Shown piece by piece: positions 36,236-43,269 of a stretch of 64,000 nucleotides of DNA. The position numbers and the translations under genes were made by a program. How positions within the stretch are numbered: the first letter of the stretch is position 1; the number at the start of each line of letters is the position of its first letter. The stretch comes from Marinomonas balearica (GTDB taxonomy: Bacteria > Pseudomonadota > Gammaproteobacteria > Pseudomonadales > Marinomonadaceae), in contig NZ_SNXC01000010.1 of NCBI RefSeq assembly GCF_004362145.1, forward strand, positions 310,001 to 374,000, in the 5' to 3' direction. Under the pieces are notes generated by a model. That model did not search any database. It saw nothing but the letters and a program-made list of their open reading frames with translations, and was not told the origin of the DNA.

Positions 36236-37063
36236 TCAGGGCTCGATTTCGAACCAATCCGCCAGTTTGTGCCATTGCTCTTCTGATTGAGCGACAAGCA
36301 GTTTACCGTTCTCCATCGTAGCGGAATAATCGGAGCCATTTAGAAGTTGGCAATATCCACCAGCTTCTTGAAGGATCAACACACCTGCGGCATGATCCCA
36401 CGGGTTCATTTTTAAGTAGAGCCCGAAATTAAAATGGCCTATCGCTAATTGTCGATAGGCGTGGCAAGAGGGTAGGCTGTGAATACGAGCAAAGGCAGTA
36501 GACTTAACCGCCAGATGGCGATTCATCTCAGGACCGTAAGAATAGAAAGACAGTATCCCCAGCATTTTCTTAAGATCCAATTCCGGTTCAATAGACAGTT
36601 TGATCGGATCACTGTTTGGACGAACTAAAAACGCGCCTTCACCTTTGTTTGCATAAACGTAATCATCATGAACCGGATCGTATAGCAGTCCAAAGACCGT
36701 TACACCTTTAACAACGACCGCGATAATCACACCAAAATCCGATAATCCATTTGCAAAATTCCAAGTGCCGTCAATGGGGTCTATTATCATGCAAGTGTCG
36801 GCGGTCTCGATGTTTTTTAGCAGTTCAGGGCTTTCTGCGACCGCTTCTTCGCCCACAATAGTCCAATTTGGAAATTTTTCTGCTATCTTTTCAGTAATAT
36901 AGCGTTCACATGCTTGATCTGCGACGGTTACCAGATCAAGTTGGGAGGATTTACTTGCAATTTGATCGGCATCCAAGTGTCTGAAATGCGGCATGATGAT
37001 GTCACGGGCAGCATCTCGAATAACGTTTAAAATTATTGATTGGCTGTCTTGATTCAGATTCAT
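36236..37063 (-). CDS. inositol-monophosphatase-family phosphatase beside the GAK operon
   Basis: 275 residues. The metal-binding motifs are intact: IVGEEAVAE (about 75), MIIDPIDGTWNFANG (about 92), NPWDHAAGVLILQEAGG (about 217). It differs from the two IMPase-like enzymes of the ABC loci, for example in RQLAIGHFNFGLYLKM. It is transcribed away from the GAK operon, with a 107-base gap that must contain both promoters, so a shared function is possible but not shown. SuhB-type housekeeping activity is an alternative. Confidence 0.9.
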   Translation of the reverse strand: MNLNQDSQSIILNVIRDAARDIIMPHFRHLDADQIASKSSQLDLVTVADQACERYITEKIAEKFPNWTIVGEEAVAESPELLKNIETADTCMIIDPIDGTWNFANGLSDFGVIIAVVVKGVTVFGLLYDPVHDDYVYANKGEGAFLVRPNSDPIKLSIEPELDLKKMLGILSFYSYGPEMNRHLAVKSTAFARIHSLPSCHAYRQLAIGHFNFGLYLKMNPWDHAAGVLILQEAGGYCQLLNGSDYSATMENGKLLVAQSEEQWHKLADWFEIEP

Positions 37064-37170
37064 GTTTATATGATCCCTAAAAGCTTATATTGAGTATTGT
37101 CACGGAAACTTAACAATTGGACTCTGTGAATTCAGTATAGTAGTCGGCAATTTATAACGGTAAGGAAAAC

Positions 37171-38814
37171 ATGCCAACACCGCCACCCTCTTCGGCAGTA
37201 CAAGAGAATATCTATTTTCTCCTGAATGAAGTAGAAAAGCACTGCCATTTTGTTGAACTTTTTTTTAAAACTCATTCTGTTGAGCTTTTACCTCGTATTC
37301 GTGCAAGGCGCGGTTATGTTCAAACGCTTCGCGAGAAAATAGAACGCGAATGCGCACTCATGATCAAGCGGCGCAAACCGGGTACGGCATTCTACAATCA
37401 GGTTACAGCCACTCGTGCTTTAGCGAACGCTTTGCAAGGGATCTCTTCACATTGCATAGAATGTGTTCAGGAAGGCACTTTAGATGAGCCTTACCAACAC
37501 CCTGTTAATGATCTGTGTCGAAAGCTTATACGTCGAATAGACCGCTCAATTAATCTTGTAAAGCTTGGAATGAATACGTCTCAACGCCGTACAGGGATCA
37601 AATTAGCACGACGCACGCGACGTTTATTAGACATATACGACGATATTCAATCGAGAACACTTTCAGCCAAACAATCGCTCACGGACGATCAGCTAAGAGC
37701 CGCCGTCCTGTGTAATTACGGACTAAAGCGTTTGATTAAACAACTTGCATTAGTCGGTGAGGCTTTAATCAAGGCGGATCTGGGGCAAGTGGCCACATTA
37801 CAAAACTTTGATCACCTGAGAGATACCGCTTCATCGCTAAATTATGATCTCAACGATTTGAAAGTGAGACGCCTAGCCTTGACGCGTTCTGGCAGCGCCA
37901 TTGCGGCGATTTCTCATAAAAATGAGAATGGTAAAGACATCCTCGCGGTATACAAAGAAGGCGATCACACCAAGATCGAAGAAGAAATTCAAGGTGTAAA
38001 ACAGTGGCGAAAAGTTGATCCAAGGCTTGCTCCTAATGTGTTGGCGCAGGCAAAAGCCGACGGTGAAAATTCAGCCTTACTGATTGAACACATTCAAGGA
38101 AGCACGTTCGAAGCGTTATTGTTAGAAGAACGTAAAAGTGGCGTCAAGGCTGCTTTGAAGGCGCTGTTTAAAACGCTCAATAGCTCTTGGAAAGAAACCT
38201 ATACCCCAGAGCAATCTTACGCGAAATTCATGCAACAACTGGAAAAACGGGTCGAAGACAGCAAAAAAGTACACCCAGATTTCTTTGCGCCCGAGCAGCA
38301 TATCTGTGGGCTTCGACGTTTGGCTTTTGATGATCTAACCCAGATTGTAGCTAAGAAAGAGTCGACATGGAGAGCGCCATTTTCAGTGCTGATTCATGGT
38401 GATTTCAACGTTGATAATTTGATATACGACGATTCCGAAGATCGAATCTATTTTATTGATTTACACCGTTCCGACTACTTTGACTACGTGCAAGATATCT
38501 CTGTTTTAATGGTGTCCATTTATCGGTTGCAGGTGCTGAGCGGATCGACTCGCAAGCTCATGATGGAAAGCGCTAAAGAGATTTATCAATTCGGTAAACG
38601 GTTTGCAAAACGTCACAACGATACAACATTTGAGCTTCGTTTAGCGGCGGGGCTCGCACGATCTTTTGCAACCTCAACACGGTTTATTTTCGACAAAAAA
38701 TTGTCGTCTAAAATGCATTTAAGATCTCGATATTTATTGGAAAAATTGGCGGCATTGCCACAAGAAAACGAATCTAAGTTTAAAATTCCACTTAAGGAGC
38801 TTTATATTGAATAA
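37171..38814 (+). CDS. PhoU-like/APH-kinase fusion protein (GAK operon)
   Basis: 547 residues, first gene of a seven-gene operon. The N-terminal 230 residues are all-helical with basic patches, resembling a PhoU-type or CHAD-like bundle (QENIYFLLNEVEKHCHFVEL onward). From about 240 there is an aminoglycoside/choline-kinase-like domain with catalytic loop LIHGDFNVDNLIYDD (about 407-421) and metal site YFIDLHRSDYFD (about 427-438). HGDxxxDN is intact, so a phosphotransferase is likely. The acceptor could be a small molecule or a protein. The last eight bases overlap the next gene. Confidence 0.75.
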   Translation: MPTPPPSSAVQENIYFLLNEVEKHCHFVELFFKTHSVELLPRIRARRGYVQTLREKIERECALMIKRRKPGTAFYNQVTATRALANALQGISSHCIECVQEGTLDEPYQHPVNDLCRKLIRRIDRSINLVKLGMNTSQRRTGIKLARRTRRLLDIYDDIQSRTLSAKQSLTDDQLRAAVLCNYGLKRLIKQLALVGEALIKADLGQVATLQNFDHLRDTASSLNYDLNDLKVRRLALTRSGSAIAAISHKNENGKDILAVYKEGDHTKIEEEIQGVKQWRKVDPRLAPNVLAQAKADGENSALLIEHIQGSTFEALLLEERKSGVKAALKALFKTLNSSWKETYTPEQSYAKFMQQLEKRVEDSKKVHPDFFAPEQHICGLRRLAFDDLTQIVAKKESTWRAPFSVLIHGDFNVDNLIYDDSEDRIYFIDLHRSDYFDYVQDISVLMVSIYRLQVLSGSTRKLMMESAKEIYQFGKRFAKRHNDTTFELRLAAGLARSFATSTRFIFDKKLSSKMHLRSRYLLEKLAALPQENESKFKIPLKELYIE

Positions 38815-39697
38815 GCCCAAAATCGGAGTCATCGGTACTCCAGGTAAATGGTCAACAGAAGTACTAGCGGAACGTTTAAAAGAGCGTACGGGATACAGCT
38901 TAGTCATCGACATGAAGGAAGTTGAACTTCGTCTGGATACTAATCAGCTTATTTACCGAGGCGTGGATCTTTCGCAATTGGATGGACTTATTGTTAAAAA
39001 GATCAGTGAAGTGTATTCACCAGCCACTGAAGACCGCATTCATATGTTGTCTCACATGGAAAATCTTGGCATCAAAATCTTCAGCCCTGCACGCAGCATG
39101 GGCAAGCTCATTAATCGATTAAGTGGAACACTGGCGCTACAAGCTGGAAACGTTCCTATGCCTAAAACACGCATCACGGAAAGTGAAGAACAAGCGTTTA
39201 CGAGCGTTCGTGAGTTTGGTTCCGCTATTTTGAAACCGTTATATTCGACGAAAGCGCGAGGAATGGAAATCCTAACGGCCGACGATTCCGATGAAAAAGT
39301 TAAGGAAACGCTGAAAGCGTATCGACAAGCGAACTCGATTTTTTACATTCAGCAAACCGTTGAATTAGACGGGCGTGATCTAGGAATGGTCTTCCTTGGT
39401 GGCGAGTATTTGTGTACGTATGCGCGTGTGGGTAATAAAGACTCTTGGAACACCACGATCAACAGTGGTGGCAAATACGAATTGTTCGAGCCTACACCTG
39501 AGCTGATCGAGCTAGGCCGTCAAGCTCAAGGGTGCTTTGATTTGAGTTTTACAACGGTAGACATCGCCTTGACCAATCAAGGCCCCGTTGTCTTTGAAGT
39601 ATCTGCCTTTGGTGGGTTCAAAGGCGCTTTAGAAGGCTGCAATATAGATGCAGCGGCAGCCTATGCAGATTACGTACTAAAAGAGGTTGCTAAATAA
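38807..39697 (+). CDS. GAK-system ATP-grasp enzyme
   Basis: 296 residues with a RimK-like ATP-grasp arrangement: N-terminal KIGVIGTPGKWSTEVLAERL, then the grasp region AGNVPMPKTRITESEEQAF, SAILKPLYSTKARGMEIL (ATP-binding Lys), FYIQQTVELDGRDLGMVF and C-terminal metal site GPVVFEVSAFGGFKGALEG. Matches what I recall as the ATP-grasp member of the 'GAK' (Grasp, Amphi-Trp, Kinase) gene set. Such enzymes join a carboxylate to an amine; the substrate is unknown. It overlaps genes on both sides (8 bases and 1 base). Confidence 0.88.
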   Translation: MNKPKIGVIGTPGKWSTEVLAERLKERTGYSLVIDMKEVELRLDTNQLIYRGVDLSQLDGLIVKKISEVYSPATEDRIHMLSHMENLGIKIFSPARSMGKLINRLSGTLALQAGNVPMPKTRITESEEQAFTSVREFGSAILKPLYSTKARGMEILTADDSDEKVKETLKAYRQANSIFYIQQTVELDGRDLGMVFLGGEYLCTYARVGNKDSWNTTINSGGKYELFEPTPELIELGRQAQGCFDLSFTTVDIALTNQGPVVFEVSAFGGFKGALEGCNIDAAAAYADYVLKEVAK

Positions 39698-40884
39698 TGA
39701 CGATGACACAAAGTAAAATGGACGAATCTACGCAATCAAACAACGTCTTGTTCACAGACGAACAGCTAAATGAAAAACGTAATCTTTGTGAGTTCAGCGC
39801 GTCTTTAACGTTTGGTGATTTGGGCGTTAAATTGTTTAGCAACAACGAGGCGTTGTTGTCTGAATTAACACAATACTATAAAAGCTACGTTTCACCAGAA
39901 ACACAAGAAGCGATCGAAACTCAAACCATCGAGGTTTACTTTGTCGAACAAGCTAATACAGGCGACGATTTAGACTGGTTAGAAGTGCCTCGTGAAGTCG
40001 GTAAAACGGGCAAAAAAGAAGGCTACCTTGATGTCGAAGGTGGACGTTGGATCAAAAAATTCAAAACGGGTATGTGCTTTTTACAACGTAAAGAGCGCCC
40101 TGTAGCGGTTGGCCAGTGCGCCGAAAACCTCGCGCAAATGGTGAACTTCATCAACAACCAATTCTTGAATCACCACCTTCGTCAAGGCTTTATGCTTGGA
40201 CACGCTGCCGCGTTTTCTCGTGTTGATGAAAGCGGTGTAGCGAGCGTAACGGCGATCGCAGCCGGCTCTGGCGGCGGTAAATCGACCACAATGTTGCGTT
40301 GTCTCGAAGACGAATTAAATGCTTTTTTGACGAACGACCGCCTACTGTTTGTGAAACGAGACGCTGTTGAGAGCGACGAATCAATTCAAACCGAAAGCAC
40401 TCAAACAGAGACCCAAACCATCGGCTTGGCAAAGCTTCCACGAGTTAATCCCGGAACCTTATTACATTCAGATCGCTTACGTCATATCTTACCTGAAGCG
40501 CGTCAGAAAGAGCTGCTTGAGCTGCCACAATCTGAACTTTGGACATTAGAAGAGAAATACGATGTTCAAATCGAAGACGAATACGGCAAAGGCCGCGTTG
40601 CTTTGAAGGGTGAGTTTAAAAACTTGGTTATGCTAGACTGGTCTCTAAACTCCGACGAGCCGACACAGCTTAAAGCGGTTGATTTGCAAAAAGAGCCAGA
40701 ACAAATCGAAGGTCTACGCAAACGCCCAGGGCCGTTCTATCAAGATGAGAATGGCAAGTTTGCAGATCTAGATGTTATGGATTCTACCGAAAAATACTGC
40801 GACGCATTGAGTCATGTGAACGTCTATCGTTTGACGGGAAATATTGATTTTGATCGAGCTTTTGAACTGATCAACGCGCTGTAA
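39697..40884 (+). CDS. HprK-related kinase B (GAK system)
   Basis: 395 residues. Walker A is AAGSGGGKSTTMLRCL (G190 to T197), as in HPr kinase/phosphorylase relatives, followed by LTNDRLLFVKRD (about 211-222). A polar insert rich in Glu, Thr, Gln and Ser lies directly after (about 224-241). The C-terminal half contains RVALKGEFKNLVMLDWSL and RLTGNIDFDRAFELI. HprK relatives phosphorylate Ser on a protein partner; no HPr or PTS gene is present. Its ATG shares one base with the preceding stop (TAATG). Confidence 0.88.
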   Translation: MTMTQSKMDESTQSNNVLFTDEQLNEKRNLCEFSASLTFGDLGVKLFSNNEALLSELTQYYKSYVSPETQEAIETQTIEVYFVEQANTGDDLDWLEVPREVGKTGKKEGYLDVEGGRWIKKFKTGMCFLQRKERPVAVGQCAENLAQMVNFINNQFLNHHLRQGFMLGHAAAFSRVDESGVASVTAIAAGSGGGKSTTMLRCLEDELNAFLTNDRLLFVKRDAVESDESIQTESTQTETQTIGLAKLPRVNPGTLLHSDRLRHILPEARQKELLELPQSELWTLEEKYDVQIEDEYGKGRVALKGEFKNLVMLDWSLNSDEPTQLKAVDLQKEPEQIEGLRKRPGPFYQDENGKFADLDVMDSTEKYCDALSHVNVYRLTGNIDFDRAFELINAL

Positions 40885-40914
40885 AGACAAACCGAAAGAG
40901 CGTATAAATAAAGT

Positions 40915-41634
40915 ATGAAACAACGCCAGCAGACTCGTTGTGCACTGATTCGACACGGTGCATACGAGCAACTAAAAAATGTGCCGAGTGCGCTACAGCC
41001 GTTTCCCCTTACGGAGGAGGGGGAAAAAGAAGTACGCCATCAGGCACGCTTGTTTGGCGAATGGCTCAAAGAATCGGGAAATAAGCTAAACCCTGTTGTG
41101 GATTCGTCTAGCTTGTTACGAGCTTGGCAAACGGCCAGTATTTACATCGAAGAGTTAAACGACTTCTTTGTGTCTGAACCAGTGTTAACTGGGTATCCTG
41201 AACTGTGTGAGCGCAGTGTTGGAGCCGTAGCGAATCTGCCAATAGCTGAAATCGAGCGCTTACTGGCGTTAGATCCAAGGTTCGGTGTCCCGCCAGAAAA
41301 CTGGAAATCGGACAGCTACTACAAGCTGCCGTTCGACGGTGCAGAATCATTGATCGAAGCAGGGCAGCGCGTCGCGGATCATATTGCTCAATGGCAAAAC
41401 CATGTTCATGACGACGAAAAAATGAATGATCCCCAATTAATAAAATTGTTTGTGGGACACGGCGCCTCAATTCGACACGCTGCATTTCATCTTAATGTCA
41501 TAAACTTTTGCGATATTAAGCGACTAAGTATGTACTATGGGCATCCTGTGGTTTTTGAATTTGTTAAAGATAAGCATTCGACCAAACTTTTCGGGGATTG
41601 GAAAAAGCGTCAGATCCAAGAAGTGCCAGATTGA
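40915..41634 (+). CDS. histidine phosphatase superfamily protein (GAK operon)
   Basis: 239 residues of the phosphoglycerate-mutase/SixA-like branch. The catalytic motif is CALIRHGAYEQL near residue 10, the second basic residue is in SSSLLRAWQTASIY, and the second catalytic His is in LFVGHGASIRHAAF (about 181). Acts by a phosphohistidine intermediate. SixA-type members remove phosphate from proteins, but a small-molecule substrate is as likely. It lies 30 bases after the kinase gene and 30 before the metallophosphatase. Confidence 0.88.
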   Translation: MKQRQQTRCALIRHGAYEQLKNVPSALQPFPLTEEGEKEVRHQARLFGEWLKESGNKLNPVVDSSSLLRAWQTASIYIEELNDFFVSEPVLTGYPELCERSVGAVANLPIAEIERLLALDPRFGVPPENWKSDSYYKLPFDGAESLIEAGQRVADHIAQWQNHVHDDEKMNDPQLIKLFVGHGASIRHAAFHLNVINFCDIKRLSMYYGHPVVFEFVKDKHSTKLFGDWKKRQIQEVPD

Positions 41635-41664
41635 TCCAGCCCACTCTGAATAAATAGGTTTATA

Positions 41665-42996
41665 ATGCGAAATCCTCTACCTAAGGTGTCTAAACGCCCA
41701 CAACACAAAGAAATCATTGCTCGTCTTCCAACAGAGTGGACGCCTTGGCCTCACGATAAAAGCTCATGTAACGCAGCGGTACGAGAACCGCACGACGCGC
41801 CAAATAACAAGCATTGGAAAAAGAAAGTGTACTGGCCCAAAAAACCAGTTGTCTTTATTTCCGACCCGCATGCCGATGCAACTGCTTTCGAAGCGTCTCT
41901 GATCGGTGCAGGCCTTGTTGAGCGAAAATCTAAAAAAGACGGTCTTTGCAAGTACACTTTAACCAAAGTGGGCAAAAAAACAGAGATCGTCATCGGTGGT
42001 GATTGCCTTGATAAAGGCCCAAGCAATCTCGATTTATTGCGAAGCGTAAAACACCTGTATCGCTTGAAAGCAAACGTCACCTTATTAGCTGGTAATCATG
42101 ATTTACGCCTATTAATGGGGCTGTTGGCCATTGCACGCAAGAAAGATGTGGGTAATCAGCACTTGTTTGTCCGTATGGGTAAAAAAGTGGTGCCCCTGTT
42201 TCGAGAAGTGTTCGACCAATACCTTGACGGCAAGAAGTGGGACAAAAAAATCCCAGACGAAGACGCATGCCGTCAAAAGCTGTTTCCGGGCGACGAGTGG
42301 TTTAAAGAGTTTCCGTTTCATGCCGCTGGATTTTTGACCGCAGAAGGCATTGACCGTGAAGTCCGTAAGATGGAATCAAAATCCCACAGCTTCGAACAAC
42401 ATTGTCGTGACGCAGGCTTAAGCCTTCGACAAGTCTATGCGGCATCGCTTGTCTGTCAGAAGCTGTTTTTGCATAAAAAAGGTGAGTTCAACTGGTTCTT
42501 CCGTAAAATGGAACTGGTTGCTAAACGTGGCTCTTTCTTATTTTTGCATGCTGGACTTGATGACATAATGGGCGAAGTGTTACTTAAAAATGGCACAAAA
42601 TACGCGAACAAAGCGTTCCATAAGAACCTACAGCGCCGCGACTTATTTGGTTTTTACTACAGCTCAATCGCCAACACCTTCCGTACAAAATATCGCGATG
42701 CTGATTTGCCGTTGACCGAACGTGGCGTCACCGCGATCCATAAAGCGGGCATAAAAGTCGTTGTTCAAGGACACGTAAACCGTAACGAAGGCCAGCGAAT
42801 CACGATCAAAAAAGGTCTGGTTCACATTGAAGGGGACGTAACGCTCGACGAGCATTCCCGTCAACAAGAAGGCTTGCAAGGATACGGAATTGGTGCGACA
42901 TTAATCGACAAGAAAAAAGGTGTGGTTGGCATCAGCTGTGATTATCCAACGGCTAAAGTCTTGCGACCGAATGAACTTCATAATATTTACGCGTGA
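41665..42996 (+). CDS. calcineurin-like metallophosphatase (GAK operon)
   Basis: 443 residues, larger than simple family members. Metal-binding motifs are FISDPHADATAF (about 64), VIGGDCLDKGPSNLDLL (about 109) and LLAGNHDLRLLMGLL (about 140); late His residues are in FLHAGLDDI and VVVQGHVNR. GDCLDKG resembles the GDxxDRG of PPP-type protein phosphatases. A basic N-terminal 55 residues precede the domain. Cytoplasmic, no signal peptide. With the two kinase-like genes it suggests a phosphorylation/dephosphorylation pair. Confidence 0.88.
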   Translation: MRNPLPKVSKRPQHKEIIARLPTEWTPWPHDKSSCNAAVREPHDAPNNKHWKKKVYWPKKPVVFISDPHADATAFEASLIGAGLVERKSKKDGLCKYTLTKVGKKTEIVIGGDCLDKGPSNLDLLRSVKHLYRLKANVTLLAGNHDLRLLMGLLAIARKKDVGNQHLFVRMGKKVVPLFREVFDQYLDGKKWDKKIPDEDACRQKLFPGDEWFKEFPFHAAGFLTAEGIDREVRKMESKSHSFEQHCRDAGLSLRQVYAASLVCQKLFLHKKGEFNWFFRKMELVAKRGSFLFLHAGLDDIMGEVLLKNGTKYANKAFHKNLQRRDLFGFYYSSIANTFRTKYRDADLPLTERGVTAIHKAGIKVVVQGHVNRNEGQRITIKKGLVHIEGDVTLDEHSRQQEGLQGYGIGATLIDKKKGVVGISCDYPTAKVLRPNELHNIYA

Positions 42997-43002
42997 TGGA
43001 CT

Positions 43003-43269
43003 ATGAAATCAAAAACTGAATTTAAACATGAAGCATTACTCGACGCGAGTGACATCCAAGATGTGCTGAAAGCCATTTCCAAAGGAATGGGCAAAGGCAA
43101 ATTGGAGTTCAGCGATGACAAAGACGGAGAGCTGCTCTTACATCCACAAGGGTTGCTCCGTTTAAAAGTCACCGCTTCAGAAGAAGATGACCGACAGCAA
43201 TTTGAGATAAAAGTACGCTGGGAAAAAAGCCCAAAAGCCATTAGTAAGAATCCTCCTAAGATTGCGTAG
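43003..43269 (+). CDS. amphi-Trp domain protein (GAK system)
   Basis: 88 residues covering one amphi-Trp domain: KTEFKHEALLDASDIQDVLK, then an amphipathic strand stretch (LRLKVTASEEDDRQQFEIKV) ending in the conserved Trp73 of RWEKSP. It is short and charged and has no catalytic motif, so it is the best candidate for a substrate or adaptor of the operon's kinases and ATP-grasp enzyme. It starts six bases after the metallophosphatase stop and is the last gene of the operon. Confidence 0.85.
   Translation: MKSKTEFKHEALLDASDIQDVLKAISKGMGKGKLEFSDDKDGELLLHPQGLLRLKVTASEEDDRQQFEIKVRWEKSPKAISKNPPKIA

Follow-up and report, generated by a model that had tools for sequence, protein, structure and literature searches.

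The GAK operon of Marinomonas balearica, a co-inherited six-gene unit with a putative Pho box in its genus

What does the GAK system do, and which genes belong to it? This question is raised by an operon of six plus-strand open reading frames between positions 37171 and 43269 of the DNA that we analyzed, a stretch of 64,000 nucleotides from Marinomonas balearica (assembly GCF_004362145.1, contig NZ_SNXC01000010.1, positions 310,001 to 374,000; hereafter the window). Three of the six products exceed the NCBIfam cut-offs for GAK families, namely the ATP-grasp enzyme, the HprK-related kinase B (HprK-B) and the amphi-Trp protein. All four families of the NCBIfam system (TIGR04354, TIGR04355, TIGR04356 and TIGR04357) score over cut-off in the genome, with the CofD-like protein encoded on another contig (487 bits, cut-off 340). 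NCBIfam names these parts, whereas we define the usual GAK gene set, in which a PhoU-kinase fusion and two phosphatases have a regular place, and report a putative Pho box in one genus.

Searches with the family names or accessions (the four TIGR models and PF20068) found no paper on these families, nor any that gives a function. A study of phosphate limitation in Desulfovibrio alaskensis (PMC5193443) does not mention ATP-grasp or CofD in its main text, and its gene numbers could not be matched to GAK genes. As far as these searches reach, the cluster is a standard but uncharacterized member of the named system.

The six-gene unit and its conservation

An original prediction, made from the letters of the window, counted seven genes at this locus while listing six products, and six is the number present (Table 1). 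The spacings that it gave (overlaps of 8 and 1 bases, gaps of 30, 30 and 6 bases) were all reproduced by our reading of the open reading frames, and its six product types agree with Pfam and NCBIfam scores and, for the PhoU half of gene 1, with a structure profile.

Table 1. Positions of the operon genes, the upstream sequence elements and the divergent neighbor in the window
Feature	Position	Strand	Basis
Gene 1: fusion of PhoU-like domain (~residues 8-221) and APH-fold kinase (~231-537), 547 aa	37171..38814	+	Pfam, PDB profile, AlphaFold, Foldseek
Gene 2: GAK-type ATP-grasp ligase (RimK/MptN/LysX relative), 296 aa, TTG start	38807..39697	+	TIGR04356
Gene 3: HprK-related kinase B, 395 aa	39697..40884	+	TIGR04355
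Gene 4: histidine phosphatase (branch 1), 239 aa	40915..41634	+	Pfam His_Phos_1
Gene 5: ApaH/PPP-like metallophosphatase, 443 aa	41665..42996	+	Pfam Metallophos
Gene 6: amphi-Trp protein, 88 aa	43003..43269	+	TIGR04354
Pho-box-like direct repeat TTGTCAC-GGAA-ACTTAAC, weak in the window, 74 bases upstream of gene 1	37097..37114	+	sequence reading
-10-like hexamer TATAGT, 39 bases past box start, spacing as in relatives	37136..37141	+	sequence reading
Inositol-monophosphatase-family gene, divergent neighbor sharing a 107-base promoter region; accessory, link uncertain	36236..37063	-	Pfam Inositol_P, 158 bits

A family search combined with a reading of gene order yielded 52 tabulated loci, from which L035 (an apparent duplicate of L021) and L084 (the same place as L027) had been left out. 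Nearly all were found by HprK-B, so that the presence of this gene is by selection while that of the other genes is not. The order fusion, ATP-grasp, HprK-B, (histidine phosphatase), PPP phosphatase, amphi-Trp is kept at 41 of the 52 loci. Thirty of these have the six-gene order (including L028 with its fusion gene in two parts), another eight lack the histidine phosphatase and all belong to the genus of the window, and three carry an added SixA-NUDIX gene. The count rises to 42 of 52 with the plasmid locus L073, where the amphi-Trp gene is present but was lost to an overlap filter. The other loci that depart from this order are L026, L027, L082 and L083, which have neither phosphatase in the DNA examined, L029, in which the phosphatases come first, L063 and L064, which have CHAD genes, and L058, L094 and L095, which are cut by contig ends. 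Because the same order recurs at 41 of the 52 loci, the operon is more than a chance assembly of genes. The junction of the first two genes is also conserved, as evident by an in-frame ATP-grasp start codon located 4-11 bases within the end of the fusion gene at 44 of the 48 loci scored.

The fusion gene is found at 49 of the 52 loci (two of the three that lack it are cut by a contig edge, and the third is L095), the PPP phosphatase at 47, and an amphi-Trp gene lies beside the core at 47. The original prediction would have lost its ground if the trio of ATP-grasp, amphi-Trp and kinase normally occurred without the fusion and the phosphatases, and these counts reveal the opposite. Its proposal that the phosphatases and the second kinase are tied to the trio holds, with their catalytic residues conserved. 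Its description of them as extra does not hold because, being present at 49 and 47 of the loci, they are core genes of the usual operon.

Co-inheritance is evident both within the genus and beyond it. Of the 35 genus genomes searched, 27 encode all three of ATP-grasp, the PPP phosphatase and an HprK-B over cut-off, and the remaining 8 have none of the three; 28 strongly matching genomes served as positives for the PPP search. In a sample of 398 genomes of the phylum, HprK-B occurs in 16, and the ATP-grasp (E 1e-60) is found in 14 of these and nowhere else, the two genomes without a match being ones in which HprK-B sits at a contig edge. Amphi-Trp is encoded in 13 of the 16 HprK-B genomes and in 8 others (21 in total). 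We conclude that the six genes are inherited together as a single system and represent the form of the NCBIfam GAK system that is common in Pseudomonadota. A locus titled Enemella evansiae (L024), a species that we take to belong to Actinomycetota, clusters closely with Rhodobacterales in the tree of core proteins, which points to contamination or recent transfer.

Enzyme families of the operon

Invariant residues were counted in aligned sets of 43 (fusion), 44 (ATP-grasp), 45 (HprK-B), 35 (histidine phosphatase) and 42 (PPP phosphatase) sequences, and structure prediction used sequences from the window and seven relatives. The residues that we take to be catalytic are unchanged in all five enzyme sets, the exception being an Asn of the ATP-grasp. 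None of the six proteins matches a PADLOC defense model at E 0.01, and five proteins scanned against PHROGs gave weak matches only (the fusion and the PPP protein).

The product of gene 1 passes the Pfam cut-off for APH (40.6 bits, cut-off 23.2) and, taken alone, falls below that for PhoU (17.7 bits, cut-off 23.5). When 31 sequences of its N-terminal half are combined into a profile, solved structures of PhoU are matched (4q25, E 2.1e-12 over profile positions 7-221; 1t72, E 4.3e-10), and the PhoU-like domain is present in all 31 aligned members, including those from outside the genus. This half resembles the PhoU of PstSCAB-PhoU, from which the operon protein differs in that the domain is joined to an APH-fold kinase. 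In the AlphaFold model (mean pLDDT 83.7), residues 8-221 form a helical domain ahead of a kinase fold, and Foldseek matches this fold best to APH(3')-Ia (E 6.8e-8). Residues K262, E272, H409, D411, N416 and D430, presumably those of the kinase active site, are invariant. We do not read the fusion as an aminoglycoside resistance gene because the aminoglycoside kinase families score far below their cut-offs (46 bits versus 205).

For gene 2, the match to the grasp_GAK family (447.4 bits, cut-off 300) is accompanied by matches to solved RimK and LysX structures (E 8e-21 to 3e-19). The next-best family is the cofactor ligase MptN (145.8 bits), whereas the RimK family model scores below its cut-off (99.5 bits, cut-off 143.4). 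The enzyme has the fold and many motifs of the RimK/LysX/MptN/CofF ligases. In these ligases an E-x-N motif supplies metal ligands, and two aligned relatives have E-V-N at this place. The motif was found in none of the 44 GAK sequences, all of which have E264-V265-S266. A second RimK-family ATP-grasp gene is located on the opposite strand a few kilobases downstream of the operon at L021 (11435-12241), L033, L041 and L042, with the L021 copy being the one tested against the libraries.

Gene 3, adjacent to the ATP-grasp gene, encodes a protein that exceeds the HprK_rel_B cut-off (265 bits, cut-off 200). Its Walker A sequence G194-K195-S196-T197 and the N213-D214-R215 that follows are invariant. 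HPr kinase/phosphorylases have a P-loop and a catalytic Asp pair; here the GKST is kept and N213-D214 comes after it. The Walker A region weakly matches the HPr kinase/phosphorylase structure 1jb1 (E 0.05). However, the aligned stretch is short, ABC transporters outscore 1jb1 in the same search (E 0.002), and none of the operon genes was identified as HPr. HprK is a protein kinase, and because the Firmicutes enzyme runs its own reaction backwards with phosphate, a relative of it is a plausible phosphate-responsive step.

The gene 4 product matches Pfam His_Phos_1 (56 bits, cut-off 21.7, E 4.7e-15), with R13, H14, R69, E99 and H182 invariant. This gene is missing from 8 of the 28 genus loci, and a FastTree phylogeny of the concatenated core proteins, drawn without support values, suggests three or more losses within the genus. 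The gene 5 product matches Pfam Metallophos (31.6 bits, cut-off 21.5, E 2.8e-7); its best curated NCBIfam match is ApaH at 27 bits, far under cut-off, and ApaH structures are matched at E 5e-4. Its residues D67, H69, D113, D116, N144, H145, D146, H295 and H370 are invariant. At L041 (genome G011) and L085, the PPP phosphatase gene is present as two overlapping pieces, a histidine phosphatase gene was not detected and the CofD-like gene, unlinked to the operon, is broken in the same genome, which represents either decay of the system or assembly errors.

The amphi-Trp protein encoded by gene 6 scores 67.8 bits against TIGR04354 (cut-off 31) and 21.5 against Pfam PF20068, which is under the cut-off of 27. 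Its AlphaFold model has a mean pLDDT of 71.9, and no PDB structure matches the fold at E ≤ 0.001. W73 is the sole invariant residue among 27 aligned proteins, which include three from GAK-free genomes, and the idea that the protein is a LysW-like C-terminal carrier was discarded, as its C-terminal residue is not conserved. A [PL]x[IV] motif is present within the last 20 residues of 44 of the 48 amphi-Trp proteins at GAK loci. Amphi-Trp genes are also found away from GAK, directly downstream of a glycerol-3-phosphate dehydrogenase gene (gpsA, assigned by eye), at L089 (4929-5252) and L091 (4917-5249).

A putative Pho box upstream of the operon

We searched both strands for the Pho-box consensus, which we took to be CTGTCATN4CTGTCAT, and classed matches with two or fewer mismatches as strict. 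The strict counts cover 27 of the 28 genus loci, with L028 (split fusion gene) left out. There are 27 strict matches in 629,914 positions, of which 20, in 16 of the 27 loci, are located upstream of the operon on the same strand, 35-86 bases from the predicted gene 1 start. A relaxed box, also with at most two mismatches, is present at 24 of the 27 loci, compared to 2.1 expected from base shuffles. Ten representatives were picked for a recognizable box, and in these the mean major-base frequency rises from 46% over 60 flanking bases to 88% for the box and 92% for a -10-like hexamer at fixed spacing; the hexamer played no part in the choice.

A control search of 400 kb of one closed genome (799,320 positions) gave four matches. 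Two of these precede genes: the one lies 74 bases before this operon and the other 44 bases before pstC. The PstC protein (755 residues) is over the TIGR02138 cut-off and is encoded in a pstS-C-A-B-phoU-like run, whose other genes were named by eye. This control spans approximately 9% of the genome and contains one positive, a site between pstS and pstC.

In the window, the box position corresponds to that of strong boxes in sister species. Its first half-site, TTGTCAC, is kept, and its second reads ACTTAAC. A 45-base matrix of box, spacer and -10 element, trained on seven other loci, ranks the window site second of 127,912, a rank that mostly reflects promoter homology. Its half-sites resemble sequences (GTTTAAC and TTGTCAC) that precede pstS in the two genomes used as controls, a likeness noted by eye and after the fact. 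The sequence data are consistent with a PhoB-type Pho box upstream of the GAK operon in Marinomonas, and we consider this element a putative PhoB site.

Possible functions of the GAK operon

Our best reading, which we hold tentatively and at somewhat less than an even chance, is that the operon encodes a ligase, kinase and phosphatase pathway linked to phosphate status. The link to phosphate is drawn because of the PhoU homology of the fusion, the Pho boxes of the genus and the recovery of both the operon and pstC in the closed-genome control. The Marinomonas operon would be turned on by phosphate starvation via PhoB. In the resulting cytosolic pathway, the RimK-type ATP-grasp would couple an amino acid, probably a glutamate-like one, to a carboxylate. 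The APH-fold kinase, gated by its PhoU domain, and the HprK-type kinase would phosphorylate the same compound or its carrier protein, and the phosphate would be taken off again by the two phosphatases. The balance would be set according to phosphate status by the PhoU domain, and perhaps also by an HprK-like dependence on phosphate.

For the substrate we lean towards a small molecule, with the amphi-Trp protein as a binding or carrier protein. APH-fold kinases and ApaH-, CobC- and NUDIX-like hydrolases act mostly on small molecules or metabolites. A small compound is favored because the ATP-grasp scores better with MptN than with RimK, because the accompanying hydrolases, which vary by lineage, are mostly of kinds that act on metabolites, and because a CofD-like gene adjoins 7 of the 52 loci.

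Several observations weigh against this proposal. In a second control (400 kb from a genome closely related to that of the window, with a PPP protein 95% identical), the pstC site has three mismatches, a level at which the 799,320 positions contain 30 matches, including 7 that precede genes (the pstC site is one of these); its two matches with two mismatches are not before genes. Ahead of pstS, the best fit to the strict consensus has five mismatches in both control genomes. The 21 loci examined outside the genus have no strict box (best 3-6 mismatches), and the relaxed box is marginal there, at 4 of 19 loci versus 0.8 expected (19 of 24 loci were used, leaving out the near-duplicates L024 and L057 and the cut loci L058, L094 and L095). 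The box of the window itself is poor, with an 18-base rank of 362 that leaves it outside the seven window matches with three or fewer mismatches. The PhoU metal motif, which we presume to be E...D in both repeats, is by eye degenerate in six of eight aligned members; it is kept in L026, partly kept in L027 and lost in the protein of the window. Ligase chemistry is not assured because S266 of the ATP-grasp replaces the Asn of its RimK-type relatives. HprK relatives of known target modify proteins or peptides, which speaks for a protein substrate. Finally, at L095 (genome G087, 1-1668) HprK-B lies at the contig edge, the ATP-grasp gene is truncated, matching from position 101 onward only, and no fusion gene lies upstream within the 8 kb examined; this locus is either a remnant or a misassembly.

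The strongest alternative, unlikely but to be taken seriously, is an amended form of the circuit put forward in the original prediction. HprK-B and the PhoU-kinase would phosphorylate the amphi-Trp protein or its partner, the ATP-grasp would add amino acids to a protein tail as RimK does with S6, and the phosphatases would reverse the modification. HprK is a protein kinase and the ATP-grasp resembles RimK, a protein ligase; moreover, the [PL]x[IV] motif recurs near the amphi-Trp C-terminus, and the gene stands beside the core at most loci. However, the amphi-Trp protein is invariant only at W73, its C-terminal residue varies, and 8 of the 21 genomes of the phylum sample that encode it are without HprK-B. 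The specific claim that amphi-Trp is the phosphorylated target thus finds no support in the 27 aligned sequences, although as a target the protein is neither supported nor refuted. On balance, we have a modest preference for a small-compound substrate over a circuit aimed at amphi-Trp.

The genes that accompany the operon in particular lineages, which bear on the next alternative, escaped the original prediction, whose gene set was without the accessory NUDIX, CofD and CHAD genes and without the Pho box. A SixA-like/NUDIX fusion gene lies between HprK-B and the histidine phosphatase at seven loci (L055, L058, L060, L061, L063, L064 and L094; two of the seven were checked against Pfam and NCBIfam), and a NUDIX gene directly precedes gene 1 at L055, L060 and on a Qingshengfaniella plasmid. 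CHAD genes lie beside the operon at L024, L063 and L064, at L063 accompanied by a ParA-like gene and amphi-Trp, and ApaH genes are next door at 3 of the 52 loci. On the contig of L063, L096 (2106-3797) has an AAA_21 ATPase gene and a small RloB-like gene (by eye) between the PPP phosphatase and CHAD genes, as if a defense pair had landed in the operon.

These neighbors could indicate that the system stores, senses or degrades polyphosphate or nucleoside polyphosphates, an explanation that we judge improbable. It would account for the PhoU domain, the NUDIX and SixA-NUDIX genes, and the ApaH-like phosphatase in the operon with the ApaH genes nearby. CHAD binds polyphosphate, according to PMC6537752, and the available passages on the PhoP-controlled ppk-pptA-NUDIX operon of Streptomyces (PMC8003754) describe a similarly phosphate-controlled set with CHAD and NUDIX proteins, although these passages do not mention ATP-grasp, HprK-like or PhoU-kinase genes. 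CHAD, however, is not enriched with GAK, as evident by its presence in 7 of 16 GAK genomes compared to 201 of 398 overall, and in none of the three Marinomonas sampled, and the ligase is left unexplained.

The CofD-like gene is over cut-off in 34 of the 35 genus members and broken in the remaining one; as an obligate partner within the genus it was rejected, being over cut-off in all eight members without HprK-B. In six genus contexts (L077-L081 and L085) it lies beside a response-regulator gene (by eye) and not beside GAK. L027, L082 and L083 come from a record titled Atribacteria and two genomes of its phylum, and like L026 have neither phosphatase in the DNA examined, which ends 203 bases past HprK-B in L026; the phosphatase search was confined to these stretches of the four genomes. 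All four loci carry a gene for a protein family of about 390 residues (L026, 932-2122; L027, 4224-5390; L082, 4129-5397; L083, 4802-6001) with 47% identity across distant lineages and metal-site-like histidines. The family matched nothing in Pfam or NCBIfam (two members), PHROGs (one member) or the PDB (four-member profile), and its identification by eye as a PHP phosphoesterase, from a motif that we presume, found no support in these searches. L027 also has a YfcE-like metallophosphatase downstream. The kinds of hydrolase thus appear to change across lineages while hydrolases stay.

It is more improbable still that the gene content and the Pho box are unrelated, with an unrelated pathway having come under PhoB control in this genus by happenstance. 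The lack of convincing boxes outside the genus would be expected in such a case, but the PhoU-like domain is carried within the fusion by all 31 aligned members, also beyond the genus.

An inositol-monophosphatase-family gene (IMPase) adjoins the operon at 9 of the 28 genus loci (the window, L032, L036, L038, L039, L040, L047, L049 and L054), always on the opposite strand, and the species differ in whether it lies upstream or downstream. The pair has thus stayed together through a change of order. This neighbor, together with an ATP-grasp, histidine phosphatase and NUDIX combination that recalls eukaryotic enzymes, could suggest an ATP-grasp kinase with inositol-phosphate or pyrophosphate chemistry, as in eukaryotic PPIP5K, a reading that we regard as very improbable given that the ATP-grasp belongs to the RimK/MptN ligase group, that the neighbor was scored in part of one genus only, and that its best NCBIfam match in the window is HisN, under cut-off.

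The phosphate-linked pathway can be cast in a more ambitious form, which we find doubtful. GAK would then be an undescribed PhoB-controlled arm of the phosphate-starvation response. Its PhoU-gated kinase, HprK-like kinase/phosphorylase and amide ligase would make a phosphorylated amino-acyl compound, or a modified carrier protein, that reports phosphate status, and dedicated phosphatases would recycle it. A box of the kind found before pstC, located ahead of the GAK operon in one genus, is a first lead to the function of this system, making phosphate-linked expression and phenotype testable. If the proposal is true, the operon would represent a new enzyme pathway within one of the best-studied stress responses of bacteria.

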